The notes under the pieces are model-generated. The model ran no database searches. It worked only from the letters and a program-made list of their open reading frames with translations, and had not been told where the DNA came from. Position numbers and translations under genes: made by a program. A stretch of DNA of 42,887 nt from Rhodospirillales bacterium. GTDB taxonomy: Bacteria > Pseudomonadota > Alphaproteobacteria > Acetobacterales > Acetobacteraceae. Each line of letters opens with the position of its first letter. Within the stretch, counting starts at the first letter, position 1. Shown one piece after another: positions 30,645 through 36,349 of this stretch. The stretch covers positions 1 through 42,887 of the forward strand of contig JANXTF010000162.1 in assembly GCA_025352565.1 (NCBI GenBank), written 5' to 3'.

Positions 30645-31625
30645 TCACGCCGCCACGATCGGCTGCGCCTCCAGCACCGGTGCCCGCACCGCAAGCCCCG
30701 CGAACACGCTGCCCTCCTCGAACCAGCTTTTCGGCGCCGGGGCACCCCATAGCGTTTGCCGGCGCGGGTCCTTCAGATCCCAGCGGATCGGCACGAAATC
30801 CGGGTCCACCGTGAGGTAGTCGCTGTTGAACAGTTCGATCCGGTGGCCGTCCGGGTCGCGCAGGTAGAGGAAGAACGCGTTGGAAATCCCGTGCCGCGCC
30901 GGGCCGCGCTCCAGGCTCGCGAGCCAGCCGGTGGTCGCCAGCACGTCGCAGACATGGATGATATCGGTGATCGAGCTGACCCACACGCCGATATGATGCA
31001 GTCGCGGGCCGCGACCGTTGGTGAAGGCGAGGTCGTGCGTGTTGCCCTTGCGCTGCATCCATACCGCCCACAGCGCGTCGGTGTCCTCGGTCGCGGTGTA
31101 CTCGCTGGTGCGGAAGCCGAGCGAGGCATAGAAATCGTGGCTTGCCTGCACGTCCGGCGTGAAGCAGTTGATGTGGTCGATGCGCTGTGGATGGGTGCCG
31201 CGGTACTCGCCGTAGAATTGCAGGCGCCGCTCGGTCTGCTCCATGGCCGCGTAGAATTCGAGCGGCATCCCCAACGGATCGGCCGCGTGCAGCGTGCGCC
31301 CCTGATGCGGCATTTCCACGAAAACGCACGGCAACCCCTGCTGCGTGAACCAATGCGCGGCGCGTTCCAGATCCTCATCGCCATGCACCTTGAATCCGAG
31401 GCGCCGGATCGTCGGCGCCGCCGCGCGGCGCAGCACCACGCAATGATGGTTGCGCTCCTCCAGCCCACGCAGATACAGCGCATCGTCGGTCTGCCCGGTG
31501 GCGACGAAGCCCAGGGCGTCCACCCAGAAGGCCCGGCTGCGCGCGAGATCGGTCACGCCATATTCGATGTGGCTGGCACGGATAATGGTGAAGGGGGGAT
31601 GACGCGGTGCCGCGCGGATCGGCAT
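30645..31625 (-). CDS. hpaD: 3,4-dihydroxyphenylacetate 2,3-dioxygenase (type I extradiol)
   Basis: 326 residues, two vicinal-oxygen-chelate modules. Metal ligands are His151 (RIDHINCF), His211 (LHHIGVWV) and Glu264 (DGHRIELFNSDY), with a spacing almost the same as in Brevibacterium HPCD (155/214/267). His197 in THDLAF corresponds to the catalytic His200. The C-terminal lid with PIRWDLKDPRRQTLWGAPAP also matches. It opens the ring of homoprotocatechuate. Start follows the hpaF stop by one base. Only hpaD and hpaF of the pathway occur here; hpaE, hpaG, hpaH and hpaI must be elsewhere. Confidence 0.93.
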   Translation of the reverse strand: MPIRAAPRHPPFTIIRASHIEYGVTDLARSRAFWVDALGFVATGQTDDALYLRGLEERNHHCVVLRRAAAPTIRRLGFKVHGDEDLERAAHWFTQQGLPCVFVEMPHQGRTLHAADPLGMPLEFYAAMEQTERRLQFYGEYRGTHPQRIDHINCFTPDVQASHDFYASLGFRTSEYTATEDTDALWAVWMQRKGNTHDLAFTNGRGPRLHHIGVWVSSITDIIHVCDVLATTGWLASLERGPARHGISNAFFLYLRDPDGHRIELFNSDYLTVDPDFVPIRWDLKDPRRQTLWGAPAPKSWFEEGSVFAGLAVRAPVLEAQPIVAA

Positions 31626-31626
31626 G

Positions 31627-32007
31627 TCAGCCGCCTTTCGCATGCAGATTGTTCAGCTTCATCGAGCCCACCGGGTCGATCCGCGCTACTTCCAGCGAGA
31701 TCGCCAGGGGCGTCGTCTTGAAGACGGGATCGAGATGTTCCGTCACCGCCGCGAACACGTCCCGCGCAAACTTTGCCCGCGTCGCATCGTCGCGCCCCAC
31801 GCCGACGCGGCACTGGATTGCCACGAACGCGTTCGCCGGGTTTTCGTCGGCCACGACGAAATGCTCGCGCCGCTCCGCACGCGTGCGCAAGCCGCCGATC
31901 GGGACCATGCGGGTGGCCAGGGCGGCGCGATGCACCACACGCAGCAGGGCGGGCACATCGAGTGCTGCATCGAGGTTGGCGGAGTATTCGACCGTGATGT
32001 GCGGCAT
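31627..32007 (-). CDS. hpaF: 5-carboxymethyl-2-hydroxymuconate isomerase
   Basis: 126 residues, the same length as E. coli HpaF. The catalytic Pro2 follows the initiator Met (MPHITVEYSAN), the tautomerase-superfamily mechanism. Also visible are MVPIGGLRTRA, AFVAIQCRVGVGRD and the C-terminal SLEVARIDPVGSMKLNNLHAKGG. It isomerises CHM in homoprotocatechuate degradation, two steps after HpaD. Start at 32007 is fixed by Pro2; the longer open frame upstream is not coding. One base separates it from hpaD. Confidence 0.95.
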   Translation of the reverse strand: MPHITVEYSANLDAALDVPALLRVVHRAALATRMVPIGGLRTRAERREHFVVADENPANAFVAIQCRVGVGRDDATRAKFARDVFAAVTEHLDPVFKTTPLAISLEVARIDPVGSMKLNNLHAKGG

Positions 32008-32018
32008 GAAACGCCTCG

Positions 32019-32053
32019 CTTTCTTCCCCCTCCCCTCGACGGGAGCGGGAAAG
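32019..32053. repeat. short GC-rich inverted repeat between pgk and hpaF (repeat copy B)
   Basis: CTTTCttCCCCCTCCCctcgaCGGGAGcGGGaAAG forms an imperfect stem across the 49-bp gap between the pgk stop and the hpaF start. Its CTTCCCCCTCCC arm is shared with the copies at 24242-24343 and 36350-36430. Without a T-tract it is more likely a processing or attenuating hairpin than a full terminator. Confidence 0.55.
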
Positions 32054-32056
32054 TGG

Positions 32057-33244
32057 CTAACCCTCCAGCACGGCAACCCCCGGCAGCGTCTTGCCTTCCA
32101 TCCACTCCAGAAACGCGCCACCCGCACTCGAGACGTAGCTGAAATCCTCGATCACGCCCGCGTGCCGCAATGCGCCCACCGTGTCGCCGCCGCCGGCCAC
32201 GCTCCGGAGCCAGCCGGCGTTCGTGCCGATGGCGACCGCGCGGGCGAGTTCGGTGGTGGCGCGGTCGAAAGGCGGCGTCTCGAACGCGCCCAGCGGGCCG
32301 TTCCACACCACCGTCCGCATGTCCTGCAACCGCTTGACGAGCAACGCCACGGTCGCGGGGCCCACATCGAGGATCATCGCGTTGTCCGGCACGCCGTCAA
32401 TCGCCACTTCCATGGTGGGTGCGTTGGCGACGAATTGCGTCGCGGTCACCGCGTCCACCGGAAGCAGCACGTCGCAGCCGGCACTTTTCGCCATCGCGAG
32501 AATGTCGCGCGCCGTCTGGTGCATCGGCTTCTCCTGCAACGAGCGGCCGACATCGTGGCCCTGTGCCGCGAGAAACGTGTTCGCCATGGCGCCGCCGATC
32601 ACCAGCACGTCCACCCGGCCGCTCAGATTGCCCAGCAATTCGAGCTTGGTCGAAACCTTCGCGCCACCGACAATCGCCATCAGCGGCCGCGTCGGCGTGC
32701 CGAGTGCCGAATCCAGCGCCTCCAGCTCGGCCTGCATCAGCCGCCCGGCATAGCAGGGCATGCGATGCGCCACGCCCTCGGTGCTGGCATGCGCGCGGTG
32801 GGCGGCGGAGAACGCGTCTCCCACGAACACGTCGCCAAGCCCGGCCAGTTCGGCCGCGAACGCGGGGTCGTTGGCCTCCTCGCCGGCATGAAAGCGGGTG
32901 TTCTCCAGCACGCACACTTCGCCGTCATGCAGGGCCGCTATCACGCGCCGCGCCGCCGGACCCGTGGTGTCCTCGGCGAACGCCACACTCCGGCCAAGCA
33001 CCTTGCCCAACGCGACCGCCATCGGCGCCAGCGACATCGCCGGCACCCGCACGCCGTTCGGGCGGTCGAAATGGCTCAGCACAATCACGCGCGCGCCCTT
33101 CTCCGACAGTTCCCGGATCGTCGGCGACAGCCGTTCGATCCGGGTCAGGTCCGAGATATGCCCGTCATGCATCGGCACGTTCAAATCGGCCCGCAGCAGG
33201 ACGCGCTTGCCGCGCACGTCCAGTCCGTCCAGCGTGCGAACCAT
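32057..33244 (-). CDS. pgk: phosphoglycerate kinase
   Basis: 395 residues, normal family length. The N-terminal signature [60 protein letters not shown] and the nucleotide motif [13 protein letters not shown] are all present. It transfers the phosphate of 1,3-bisphosphoglycerate to ADP. GTG/ATG alternatives exist, but MVRTLDG at 33244 starts two bases after the gap stop and is preferred to an extension inside gap. Classical gap-pgk pair; no fba gene follows, and hpaF comes next. Confidence 0.97.
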
Positions 33245-33246
33245 GC

Positions 33247-34260
33247 TCAGAGGCTTCCGAACAGGGCGGCCGTGTCCGACATGCGGTTGGAGAAGCCCCA
33301 TTCGTTGTCGTACCAACCCATGACGCGGACCAGCACGCCGTCCACCACGGCGGTCTGCGTCGCGTCGAAGGTGCAGGAGGCGGGGGAGTGGTTGAAGTCG
33401 CTGCTCACCAGGGGGGCGGTGTTATAGTCGAGCACGCCTTTGAGCGCGCCCTCGCTCGCCGCCTTCATGGCGGCATTGAGTTCGTCCCTGGTCGGCGTCC
33501 GCTCCAGCATCACGTCGAGCGAGACCAGCGACACGTTGGGCGTCGGCACGCGGATGGCGGTGCCGTCGAGCTTGCCCTTCAGTTCGGACAGCACGAGGCC
33601 CACGGCGCGCGCCGCACCGGTGCTGGTCGGGATCAGGTTCGCCGCCGCCGCGCGGGCACGGTGCGGGTCCTTGTGAAGGCTGTCCACGGTGTTCTGGTCG
33701 CCGGTGTAGGAGTGGATGGTCACCATGTAGCCGCGCAGCACGCGGTAGTGGTCGTGCAGCACCTTGACCATCGGCACCAGGCAGTTGGTGGTGCAGGAGG
33801 CGTTGGAGATGACGGTCATCTCCTTGGTCAGCGAGGCGTGATTCACGCCGTACACGATGGTCGCGTCCACGTCGTCGGCCGGAGCGGACACGATCACCTT
33901 GCGGGCACCCGCCTGGAGCAGCCGGGACGCGCTCTCCTTGCTGGTGAAGATGCCGGTGCACTCCATCGCCACATCGACGCCCTGATACGGCACCTTCGTC
34001 GGGTCGCGTTCGGCCGACACCTTGATCGGCCCGTACACGCGGCCCTGATGGCGGATGGTGATGGTATCCCCGGACACTTCCACCACGCCGGGGAAGCGAC
34101 CATGAACGGTGTCGTAACGGAACAGATGGGCGCTGGCCTCGACGCTGCCCAGGTCGTTGATGGCGACGGGCACGACGTCCTCGCGCCCACTCTCGACGAT
34201 GGCCCGCAGCACAAGGCGTCCGATGCGCCCAAATCCGTTGATGGCGACCTTCACGGCCAT
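33247..34260 (-). CDS. gap: glyceraldehyde-3-phosphate dehydrogenase, type I
   Basis: 337 residues. NAD-binding INGFGRIGR (7-15), with Asp36 after Asn35 favouring NAD. The catalytic SNASCTTNC puts the nucleophile at Cys156, and [11 protein letters not shown], the [16 protein letters not shown]-loop and [12 protein letters not shown] at the end are standard. Glycolytic or gluconeogenic role. AAAGGA lies about eleven bases before the ATG. It is 21 bp downstream of the transketolase-like gene and two bases before pgk. Confidence 0.98.
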
Positions 34261-34281: not shown

Positions 34282-36249
34282 TCAGGCGATCGAGACAGGC
34301 GGCGCCAGGCGGCGTCGCACGAAGGCGGCGATGGCGTCGGGCGTGAGCCCGTACCGCCGGTGAATATCGCCGAGATTGCCGGCGACGGGTGCGCCGGTCA
34401 TGCCGATGAACTGGCCGTCGGCACCCAGCCAGCATTCCCAGCCGAAGGCGCAGGCGGCCTCGATGCCGAAGCGTGGGGCGCCGCCGAGAACCGTCGCCCG
34501 ATAGGCTTCGTCCTGCAAGGCGAACAACTCCCAGCACGGCAGTGAAACGACCGCCACCGCGATGTTCTCGGAAGCCAGGATGGCGCGGGCCTCGGCAGCG
34601 GCGGCGACCTCGGCGCCGGTTGCGATCAGCGTCGCCTGACGCGGGCCATCGGCCTCCGCCAGCACGTAGCCGCCCCGGGCGCAGCGATTCTCGCCGCCAT
34701 CCGCCCGCAGGCCGGGCGGGGCCGGCAAGCTGAGAACCAGCACGCTCGGGCCATCGACGCGACGCAGCCCGAGTTCCAGGCTTTCGGCCAGCTCCAGCGG
34801 GTCCGCCGGGCGAAATACGTGCAGATTGGGCATCGCCCGCAATGCCGCCAGATGGTCCGGCGGCGGCGGCGCGTGCGGCTCCTGCAACAGGGAATGCAAC
34901 ACGCGCTGGTGCATAGCGGCAGCCAGCCGCAGCGCGGGGCGGATGGCATCGGCCGCCCGCATAAGCCCCGCCCCGAACGGAACCGACCCACCATGCAGCG
35001 CCAGCCCGTTGGCCACCGCCGCCATGCCATGCGCCCGCGCGCCGCAGCGCAGCACCCGGCCGGCGAAGCTCGCGCCTATGCCGGTCGGCGCGATGGCGTC
35101 GAGCCCGACCATGACCGAGGCGCTGTCGGTGGTGGCGCCGACCAGTTCGGGCATGGCGTCCGAGAGAATGTCCAGCGCCTGGCGCGTGACGCTGGCCTCG
35201 CCGTCCGACGCCGGGCCCCGCGCCAATGCCTGCTTCAACGCGGCGACGGTCTCGTGGAAGGTATCCGGAAGGCGCCCCGCCATCACGCGCTCGAATTCGG
35301 CGCGGCTCTGATGCCGCGCGAGCCGCTTGAGCCAGCCGCGCCGCGCGGTGGCGCCCCGCGCCCCGGCCTTCGCCCACATGGCCGCGATCGGCTCGGGCAG
35401 GTCGAACGGCGCGTGCGGCCAGCGGAGGCTCCGCGCCTGGGCGTCGACCCAGGCCGCGTCCCGTTCGGGAGTGGCGCGGCAGGCGATCAGGCTGGGTTTT
35501 TTCGACCGCAGCGCCATGGCCAGGGCCGAGGCGATCTCGGCCGGGTCGTCTCCGGCCACCCGCCGCACGGTCCAGCCGGACGCCGCGAACCGGCGGGGCA
35601 CGTCGTCGGCACTGGGCTCCGCGTCGGCGGCTGTCGGCGCCTCGTGCCACAGCAGCGTCAGCTTCTCAAGGCGCAGCATGCCCGCGAGGCTCGCCGCCTC
35701 CTGGCACACGCCCGAGGCGAGGTCGTCATCGGACACCACGGCCCAGGTGCGATGATCCACCAGGCTTTTGCCGAACCGAGCCGCGAGCAGGCGCTCGGCC
35801 AAGGCGAGGCCCACCGCCACCCCGAACGCCTCTCCCGGCGCACCGGCGCTGGCCTCGATCGCCGGATGGACGGCGAATTGAGGCTGCACCGGCAGCGCCG
35901 AATCCTCCTGGCCGAACCGGCGCAGTTCGGCCGCCTCCACGCCCGCATGCCCGGTCAGATGCAGCAGCGTGTACAGCAGCGGCCCGCAATCGGCGCAGCC
36001 CAGCACGTAGCGGTCGCGATCCGGCCAATGCGGATCGGCCGCGTCGAATTTGTGAAACCGCGTCCAGAGGACCGAAGCCGCCTCGGCCCCGCCGATCCCA
36101 AGGCCGGCCCGCGTGAATGGCGCGAGGGCGGCCATGTCGGTGGCCAAGGCCCGAATCGCGTCGGCCATGCGTTGCTCAGCCGTGAAGGCGCGCGCAAGGC
36201 GCATCGCCGGTGGCCGTGTTTCGGCGATCGGTTCAGCCATATCAGGCAT
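34282..36249 (-). CDS. transketolase-like protein lacking catalytic and ThDP-binding residues (probable pseudoenzyme)
   Basis: 655 residues, full transketolase length with all three domains recognisable. Residues 31-62 (AIRALATDMA ... ASVLW) and 78-100 (RDRYVLGCADCGPLLYTLLHLTG) align without gaps to E. coli TktA, yet the His of SGHPGAP is Arg47 and the His of SNGHGS is Asp87. The GDG cofactor motif is Ser173-Asp-Asp, the metal-binding Asn is Ala204, the activating Glu of REFGM is Ala406 (CGARAHGM), the THDS...THQP loop is shortened to LHSLLQEPHAPPPPDH, and the phosphate-binding Arg of LSRQ is Leu. Transketolase activity is therefore very unlikely. GGAGGG precedes the ATG at 36249; a second ATG lies nine bases on. 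It heads the gap-pgk operon where an active tkt is expected. Confidence 0.88.
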   Translation of the reverse strand: MPDMAEPIAETRPPAMRLARAFTAEQRMADAIRALATDMAALAPFTRAGLGIGGAEAASVLWTRFHKFDAADPHWPDRDRYVLGCADCGPLLYTLLHLTGHAGVEAAELRRFGQEDSALPVQPQFAVHPAIEASAGAPGEAFGVAVGLALAERLLAARFGKSLVDHRTWAVVSDDDLASGVCQEAASLAGMLRLEKLTLLWHEAPTAADAEPSADDVPRRFAASGWTVRRVAGDDPAEIASALAMALRSKKPSLIACRATPERDAAWVDAQARSLRWPHAPFDLPEPIAAMWAKAGARGATARRGWLKRLARHQSRAEFERVMAGRLPDTFHETVAALKQALARGPASDGEASVTRQALDILSDAMPELVGATTDSASVMVGLDAIAPTGIGASFAGRVLRCGARAHGMAAVANGLALHGGSVPFGAGLMRAADAIRPALRLAAAMHQRVLHSLLQEPHAPPPPDHLAALRAMPNLHVFRPADPLELAESLELGLRRVDGPSVLVLSLPAPPGLRADGGENRCARGGYVLAEADGPRQATLIATGAEVAAAAEARAILASENIAVAVVSLPCWELFALQDEAYRATVLGGAPRFGIEAACAFGWECWLGADGQFIGMTGAPVAGNLGDIHRRYGLTPDAIAAFVRRRLAPPVSIA

Positions 36250-36349
36250 GTACCCTCCGGACCGGGCTATTAGAAGTGCCGCGCCGCGAGGGCAAGGGGC
36301 GCTGCCTCCATGGCATTACCGGGGCGCTACCGGATTCACACATCGTTTT

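Follow-up and report, generated by a model that had tools for sequence, protein, structure and literature searches.

A recurrent bacterial pseudo-transketolase in Acetobacteraceae, probably retained for a non-catalytic role

To our knowledge, catalytically dead transketolases are known only as vertebrate TKTL1, a protein whose function is disputed. A transketolase variant modelled on TKTL1 shows no specific thiamine cofactor binding and no detectable activity (PMC3485151), TKTL1 itself is argued from models to be a real transketolase (PMC6334435), and stable heterodimers of TKTL1 with transketolase are reported (PMC6555833). The split-gene transketolase of Carboxydothermus hydrogenoformans has the same domains as the protein discussed below but is an active enzyme composed of two polypeptides, and it shows that the PP-Pyr linker is variable (PMC7661550). 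No bacterial pseudo-transketolase was found in the open-licence literature among the matches listed.

Here we describe P0001, a transketolase homologue encoded in a 42,887-nucleotide stretch of Acetobacteraceae DNA (the window). Like TKTL1, it is a paralogue of transketolase that lacks part of the active site; whereas TKTL1 has lost 38 consecutive residues, P0001 does not have this N-terminal-domain deletion and instead carries many point changes together with small deletions (4, 16, 4 and 7 residues relative to intact copies). The dead copies of Acetobacteraceae further differ from TKTL1 in being bacterial, recurrent, as judged from gene trees, and tied to a gap-pgk operon. P0001 is an orthologue of the operon-type transketolase of those Acetobacteraceae with an intact active site, which occupies the same place before gap and is about 48-58% identical; full-length intact copies of this type hold 17-20 of 20 core residues, often in genomes where no second transketolase is matched. 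In this bacterial set the active site was lost independently several times, intact controls are close at hand within the same genera and the dead protein is under strong selection, which offers a direct means of asking whether transketolase does more than catalysis and what its linker and C domain are for.

The operon gene and its active site

The gene for P0001 lies on the minus strand of the window, from 36249 to 34282 (34282..36249; 655 aa, ATG start), preceded by an RBS-like GGAGGG (36253..36258, minus strand, read directly from the sequence) whose distance of 3 bases from the ATG is on the short side. The start of gap, encoding a type I glyceraldehyde-3-phosphate dehydrogenase (33247..34260, minus strand; Pfam, and TIGR01534 over its cut-off), follows 21 bases past the P0001 stop, and pgk, encoding phosphoglycerate kinase (32057..33244, minus strand; Pfam PGK, 466 bits), comes next, its start having been chosen by inspection as the ATG just after gap, while the mechanical ORF starts at TTG 33316. 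The three genes form a tight operon with that of P0001 in first place, as the initial annotation had proposed, and an M20-family hydrolase gene lies upstream of it.

The transketolase domain order claimed for this protein is borne out by Pfam, which finds Transketolase_N (186.5 bits), Transket_pyr (63.1 bits) and Transketolase_C_1 (93.0 bits) in full order. P0001 is predicted to fold as a transketolase: an AlphaFold2 model built with 22 sequences has the transketolase fold with a pLDDT of 81.5 and a pTM of 0.85, and the closest solved structures to it are transketolases (e.g., 5vrb, Z 42.8, rmsd 2.0 over 602 residues). Besides the N-terminus, the least certain stretches of the model are residues 46-49, 206-214, 261-264 and 391-393, the first three of which coincide with or adjoin the H26, N185 and H261 positions. 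Compared with the TktA family (TIGR00232, EC 2.2.1.1), P0001 shares the full length and, by prediction, the three-domain fold, but has lost the thiamine diphosphate (ThDP) motif, the Glu that activates the cofactor and almost every substrate residue, and it scores 375 bits against TIGR00232, under the curated cut-off of 682.25.

P0001 was aligned to E. coli TktA for comparison at the catalytic residues, which are given in TktA numbering. The alignment reproduces the catalytic replacements named in the initial annotation, namely H26 to R47, H66 to D87, GDG to S173 D174 D175, N185 to A204, E411 to A406 and R520 to L508, together with a shortened loop at the positions of H461, D469 and H473, where seven residues (HDSIGLG in intact relatives) are gone and Q456, a gap and P461 are found instead. 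Additional losses are H100 to Q122, E160 to S179, R358 to A352, F434 to L429, F437 to A432 and Y440 to A435. The broken ThDP motif spans residues 173-204 (35638..35733, minus strand), with SDD...A for GDG...N, and the codon of A406, which replaces the cofactor-activating Glu411 and is the same in the second species of the genus, lies at 35032..35034 (minus strand); of the GDG...N motif and Glu411, only the Asp remains. The whole sugar-phosphate set of H26, H100, H261, R358, S385, H461, D469 and R520 is likewise absent, these positions being R47, Q122, a gap or A270, A352, a gap or V379, Q456, a gap and L508; at H261 and S385 two alignments disagree on the gap, and the residue is retained in neither.

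The statement that every key site had been replaced needs some tempering, as nearly all are lost while the metal-binding Asp (D155, here D174) and G114 (here G136) are still present. In the GDG motif, the change at the first position (G154S) does not count as a loss: SDG is common among intact operon-type copies, often in genomes without a matched second transketolase, which suggests that the motif tolerates replacement of its first Gly. Sampled loci with SDG for GDG include L012, L018, L023 and others. Overall, 19 active-site residues hardly vary across 105 intact relatives, and P0001 retains two of them. Since these cofactor and substrate residues are lost, we infer that P0001 is without transketolase activity and that canonical ThDP and sugar-phosphate binding are gone.

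A sequencing or frame error as the source of the dead site is ruled out, because the copy of G010, the only other species of the window's genus in the genome collection, carries the same dead site. It is identical to P0001 at 15 of the 17 compared sites, and the remaining two (Ala for S179 and for P461) also differ from TktA.

Recurrent loss and second transketolases

Among 200 genomes of the family, 155 have a classified operon copy, comprising 114 intact, four intermediate and 37 dead copies, with dead defined as less than 60% of filled core sites matching TktA and intact as at least 85%. Contig-cut fragments were classed on the sites they hold (intermediate G093 is a gapped fragment), and four of the 37 dead copies (G009, G074, G127, G131) run into contig ends. 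Transketolase loci of other types (L070, L088, L089, L091-L101) were left out by hand, and the operon copies of G031, G096, G152 and G195, which were not fetched, and of G166, which is unclassified, stand outside these counts. Dead copies occur in 23 genera and intact copies in 57, three genera being mixed: g97 and g99 (dead and intact) and g92 (dead and intermediate). An order-level draw of 90 yielded this same family alone. In g92 the loss is graded, with 15, 13 and 4 of 20 core residues in L017 (G150), L014 (G092) and L031 (G193), a series useful for ordering the steps of decay. A gap gene lies 3' of the operon-type copy in 104/114 intact, 4/4 intermediate and 36/37 dead genomes, and of the 11 copies without it, ten are intact (three of these are cut by contig ends) and one is dead. 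For this last copy (L061 in G116), the 3 kb downstream contain no gap gene, the sole such case among the 37.

Loss of the transketolase active site is recurrent in Acetobacteraceae, as judged from protein matches and from trees of the neighboring GAPDH (337-338 columns). For nine of 12 dead queries, the best match outside the own genus is an intact or intermediate protein, while G086, G056 and G042 match a dead one. A GAPDH tree of 58 chosen rows requires at least nine state changes between dead and intact or intermediate, or seven if intermediates count as dead, and in it G153, G198, G012 and the genus of the window branch among intact relatives at forks with good support. On a quick GAPDH tree of 144 rows, the three-state label has to change 13 times. 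An AU test, applied once the tree was known, rejects the grouping of all dead and absent rows into one clade (p 7.7e-11). On the quick tree, roughly two thirds of the dead genomes group together in a large clade (24 rows; support 94, unstarred), so those dead copies may stem from one loss. Among the matches listed for named transketolases, which are mostly canonical, a dead active site was met in 0 of 79 full-length loci; L252 holds 16 of 20 core residues.

The initial annotation named the lack of any other transketolase in the genome, together with measured activity of this protein, as grounds against its reading; a second, intact transketolase is found there. The window's genome encodes a canonical transketolase (C156:41226-43223; 824 bits) that is 34% identical to P0001, its gene directly adjoining that of a bifunctional transaldolase/phosphoglucose isomerase. 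A half-length frame for a transketolase N domain, resembling those of split genes, is present in this genome as well (C121:11158-11901; L003, L006). Another full-length transketolase is present in all 37 dead genomes, and enzymes of the C156 type (at least 54% identity, from genome lists compiled by hand) occur in 32/37 dead but only 11/114 intact genomes (Fisher p 2.6e-18). In the 20 dead genomes checked, the C156-type enzyme always retains 19-20 of 20 core residues, and in 18 its gene adjoins transaldolase/phosphoglucose isomerase, which in G193 and G129 was not in the fetched stretch. The five dead genomes without the C156 type each have another transketolase over the curated cut-off, as do all 16 genomes (13 dead, three intermediate) examined in this respect. 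In contrast, no second transketolase match was obtained in 83/114 intact genomes at E<=1e-20 with six candidates scored per genome, and some of the matches in the other 31 are pieces of one gene. The dead genes, which look full-length, are presumably annotated as transketolases; pathway models should take the other transketolase copy and not the dead operon copy.

The constant presence of another transketolase in dead genomes is what would be expected if the dead protein were a regulatory subunit, forming mixed dimers with an intact transketolase in the manner of the reported TKTL1-transketolase heterodimers (PMC6555833). By this analogy, the would-be partner of P0001 is the C156 enzyme, only 34% identical to it; the second transketolases beside dead copies are of different kinds, and the residues that dead copies retain are the same in intact copies, 83/114 of whose genomes are without a second match. 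We regard such a subunit as improbable, and the proposal that P0001 is a regulatory partner of an active transketolase is weakened by the coexistence of dead copies with different kinds of backup.

The operon copy can also be missing altogether. In G100, G156 and G199 (L262-L264), an M20 hydrolase gene precedes gap and pgk and the transketolase gene is cleanly absent from its place between them, an empty site; the hydrolase was compared for G100 and is 70% identical to that of the window. In G091 (C630:11840-11977), a broken 46-residue C-domain relic about 120 bases before a gap gene is probably a decayed operon transketolase. A search for C-domain-only remnants in 40 genomes without a classified operon copy gave a match in 37, all in frames of at least 441 residues except the G091 relic. 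In the sample, 42 genomes have no classified operon copy and 34 of them carry the C156-type enzyme, which indicates that the job of the operon copy is dispensable.

Selection on the dead protein and the parts it retains

The P0001 gene and its counterpart in G010 differ with an omega of 0.053 (dN 0.093, dS 1.75; likelihood ratio 487 against omega = 1) and with differences of 0.116, 0.089 and 0.395 at codon positions 1, 2 and 3. Amino-acid identity is 0.84, versus 0.61 in a neutral simulation with the same number of changes placed at random, and 0 stops are observed versus 5.1 expected under neutral placement. The earlier suggestion that the frame is kept by selection on the protein agrees with these values, and the dead site is present in both members of the genus. 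Because both carry the same dead site, their ancestor was very probably already dead. P0001 combines an enzyme-family fold, by prediction, with lost catalytic residues and purifying selection after the loss, two of the features by which a pseudoenzyme is recognized.

Among pairs with dS <3, omega is 0.042-0.113 for the 11 that join two dead copies and 0.022-0.082 for the 14 intact ones; six more dead-set pairs (four with dS >4, two including an intermediate) and two saturated intact pairs were not relied on. Constraint on the dead copies is relaxed about twofold relative to intact copies, yet strong. By domain, omega is low everywhere with no domain consistently distinct, so recent selection has acted on the whole protein and the C domain is not singled out. 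Moreover, each of the 33 long dead copies has one uninterrupted frame over the aligned domains, and the stops flagged in G053 and G178 fall outside the frames used for this analysis.

These data bear on two explanations that require no function of the protein. Simple decay, with the gene en route to loss, draws on the related genomes without the gene, on the broken relic before gap in G091 and on the graded series in g92 (15, 13 and 4 of 20 sites), and is at odds with the open frames of the 33 long dead copies and with a dead state older than the G000/G010 split (dS 1.75), since which the protein has been constrained; we consider it very unlikely. A gene kept solely as a leader reading frame, translated for the expression of gap and pgk, would fit the 21 bases between its stop and the next start and the presence of gap downstream in 36/37 dead and 104/114 intact genomes. 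Such a leader would guard the frame and not the amino acids, whereas omega is near 0.05 and identity far above neutral, and it is absent in G100, G156 and G199, so that we give this explanation scarcely any credence. Both simple decay and leader-frame polarity are disfavored by the codon evolution of the G000/G010 pair and of the dead pairs.

Retention in dead copies was scored for 33 dead proteins of >450 aa, P0001 included, with domain borders set manually, over 253 columns whose invariance among 105 intact copies reaches at least 97% (19 active-site, 234 other). The dead proteins retain 0 to 8 of the 19 active-site columns and 103 to 196 of the 234 others, with 159 of the latter in P0001. 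When active-site columns are excluded, mean retention is 0.52 in the N domain, 0.55 in the Pyr domain, 0.91 in the linker (8 columns) and 0.92 in the C domain (31 columns), and the N and Pyr columns may be invariant in intact copies only owing to catalysis. The strongly retained inter-domain linker, residues 301-330 of P0001 (35260..35349, minus strand), includes R303, R304, W306, L307, R309 and R321, of which R303, R304, L307 and R309 are not general to transketolases. The core of the C-terminal domain, the best retained domain, comprises residues 526-620 (34390..34674, minus strand); P0001 keeps 97% of its 31 columns, and in the model this core has a pLDDT of 84-97 per 10-residue block. In the 16-residue loop surrounding H261, gaps take up 81% of the positions of dead sequences. 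Of 108 columns common to dead and intact proteins, 80 hold for transketolases in general; the remaining 28 do not, and these are rich in Arg and Trp (P0001 positions 158, 167, 169, 248, 298, 303, 304, 309, 525, 537, 573, 606 and 607, with P0001 itself having Cys at 606).

Strong constraint after active-site loss could also reflect a new catalytic function, with the pocket rebuilt for a ThDP-independent reaction, and the retention of D174 and a few new residues conserved in the large dead clade (e.g., Arg at the Tyr440 position) are compatible with this. Only six derived columns are conserved in 22 members of that clade, with no obvious catalytic set among them; the replacements vary between lineages, and the pocket loops are deleted or poorly defined in the model. 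We therefore view new catalysis as rather unlikely.

A possible non-catalytic role

Repeated losses together with close protection of the remaining protein point to a second, non-catalytic job for this transketolase. In the sequence of events that we consider, the operon copy would once have served as the transketolase of Acetobacteraceae; with a second transketolase present, usually beside a transaldolase/phosphoglucose isomerase gene, catalysis would have become dispensable and the pocket would have decayed, as the relatives suggest. The strong selection in all domains argues that the dead protein has a job that would be independent of the pocket, and since the linker and C domain are unchanged from intact copies and the Arg/Trp set is family-specific, this job may well be older than the loss. 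It would consist of binding or scaffolding through the linker and C-terminal domain, and would already have been performed by the active enzyme. We assign a probability of roughly 0.6 to the overall reading that this is a recurrent bacterial pseudo-transketolase, retained for a non-catalytic role that its active ancestor probably already had. A bolder version, in which the transketolase of Acetobacteraceae always had a second non-catalytic function in the linker and C domain that was retained in about seven or more lineages after pocket loss, is one that we entertain only tentatively. If the second-function reading is true, at least about seven lineages are natural separation-of-function experiments.

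The simplest candidate partners for this role would be GAPDH or PGK, produced from the same mRNA, which is a guess. The partnership with Gap or Pgk put forward in the initial annotation is suggested by operon position only: GAPDH does not co-vary with the presence of the gene, and G100, G156 and G199 keep hydrolase, gap and pgk without it. In the GAPDH comparison (104 intact, 36 dead and 27 absent rows, with three G100-type rows left out), a single column is changed where the gene is absent and none in dead copies only, which gives no support to GAPDH as a partner by co-variation.

Beyond the operon itself, pgk is directly followed on its 3' side by genes for a 5-carboxymethyl-2-hydroxymuconate isomerase and for a protein of glyoxalase/dioxygenase type (window 30645-32127, minus strand), such that genes of glycolytic and aromatic-degradation type adjoin in this part of the window.
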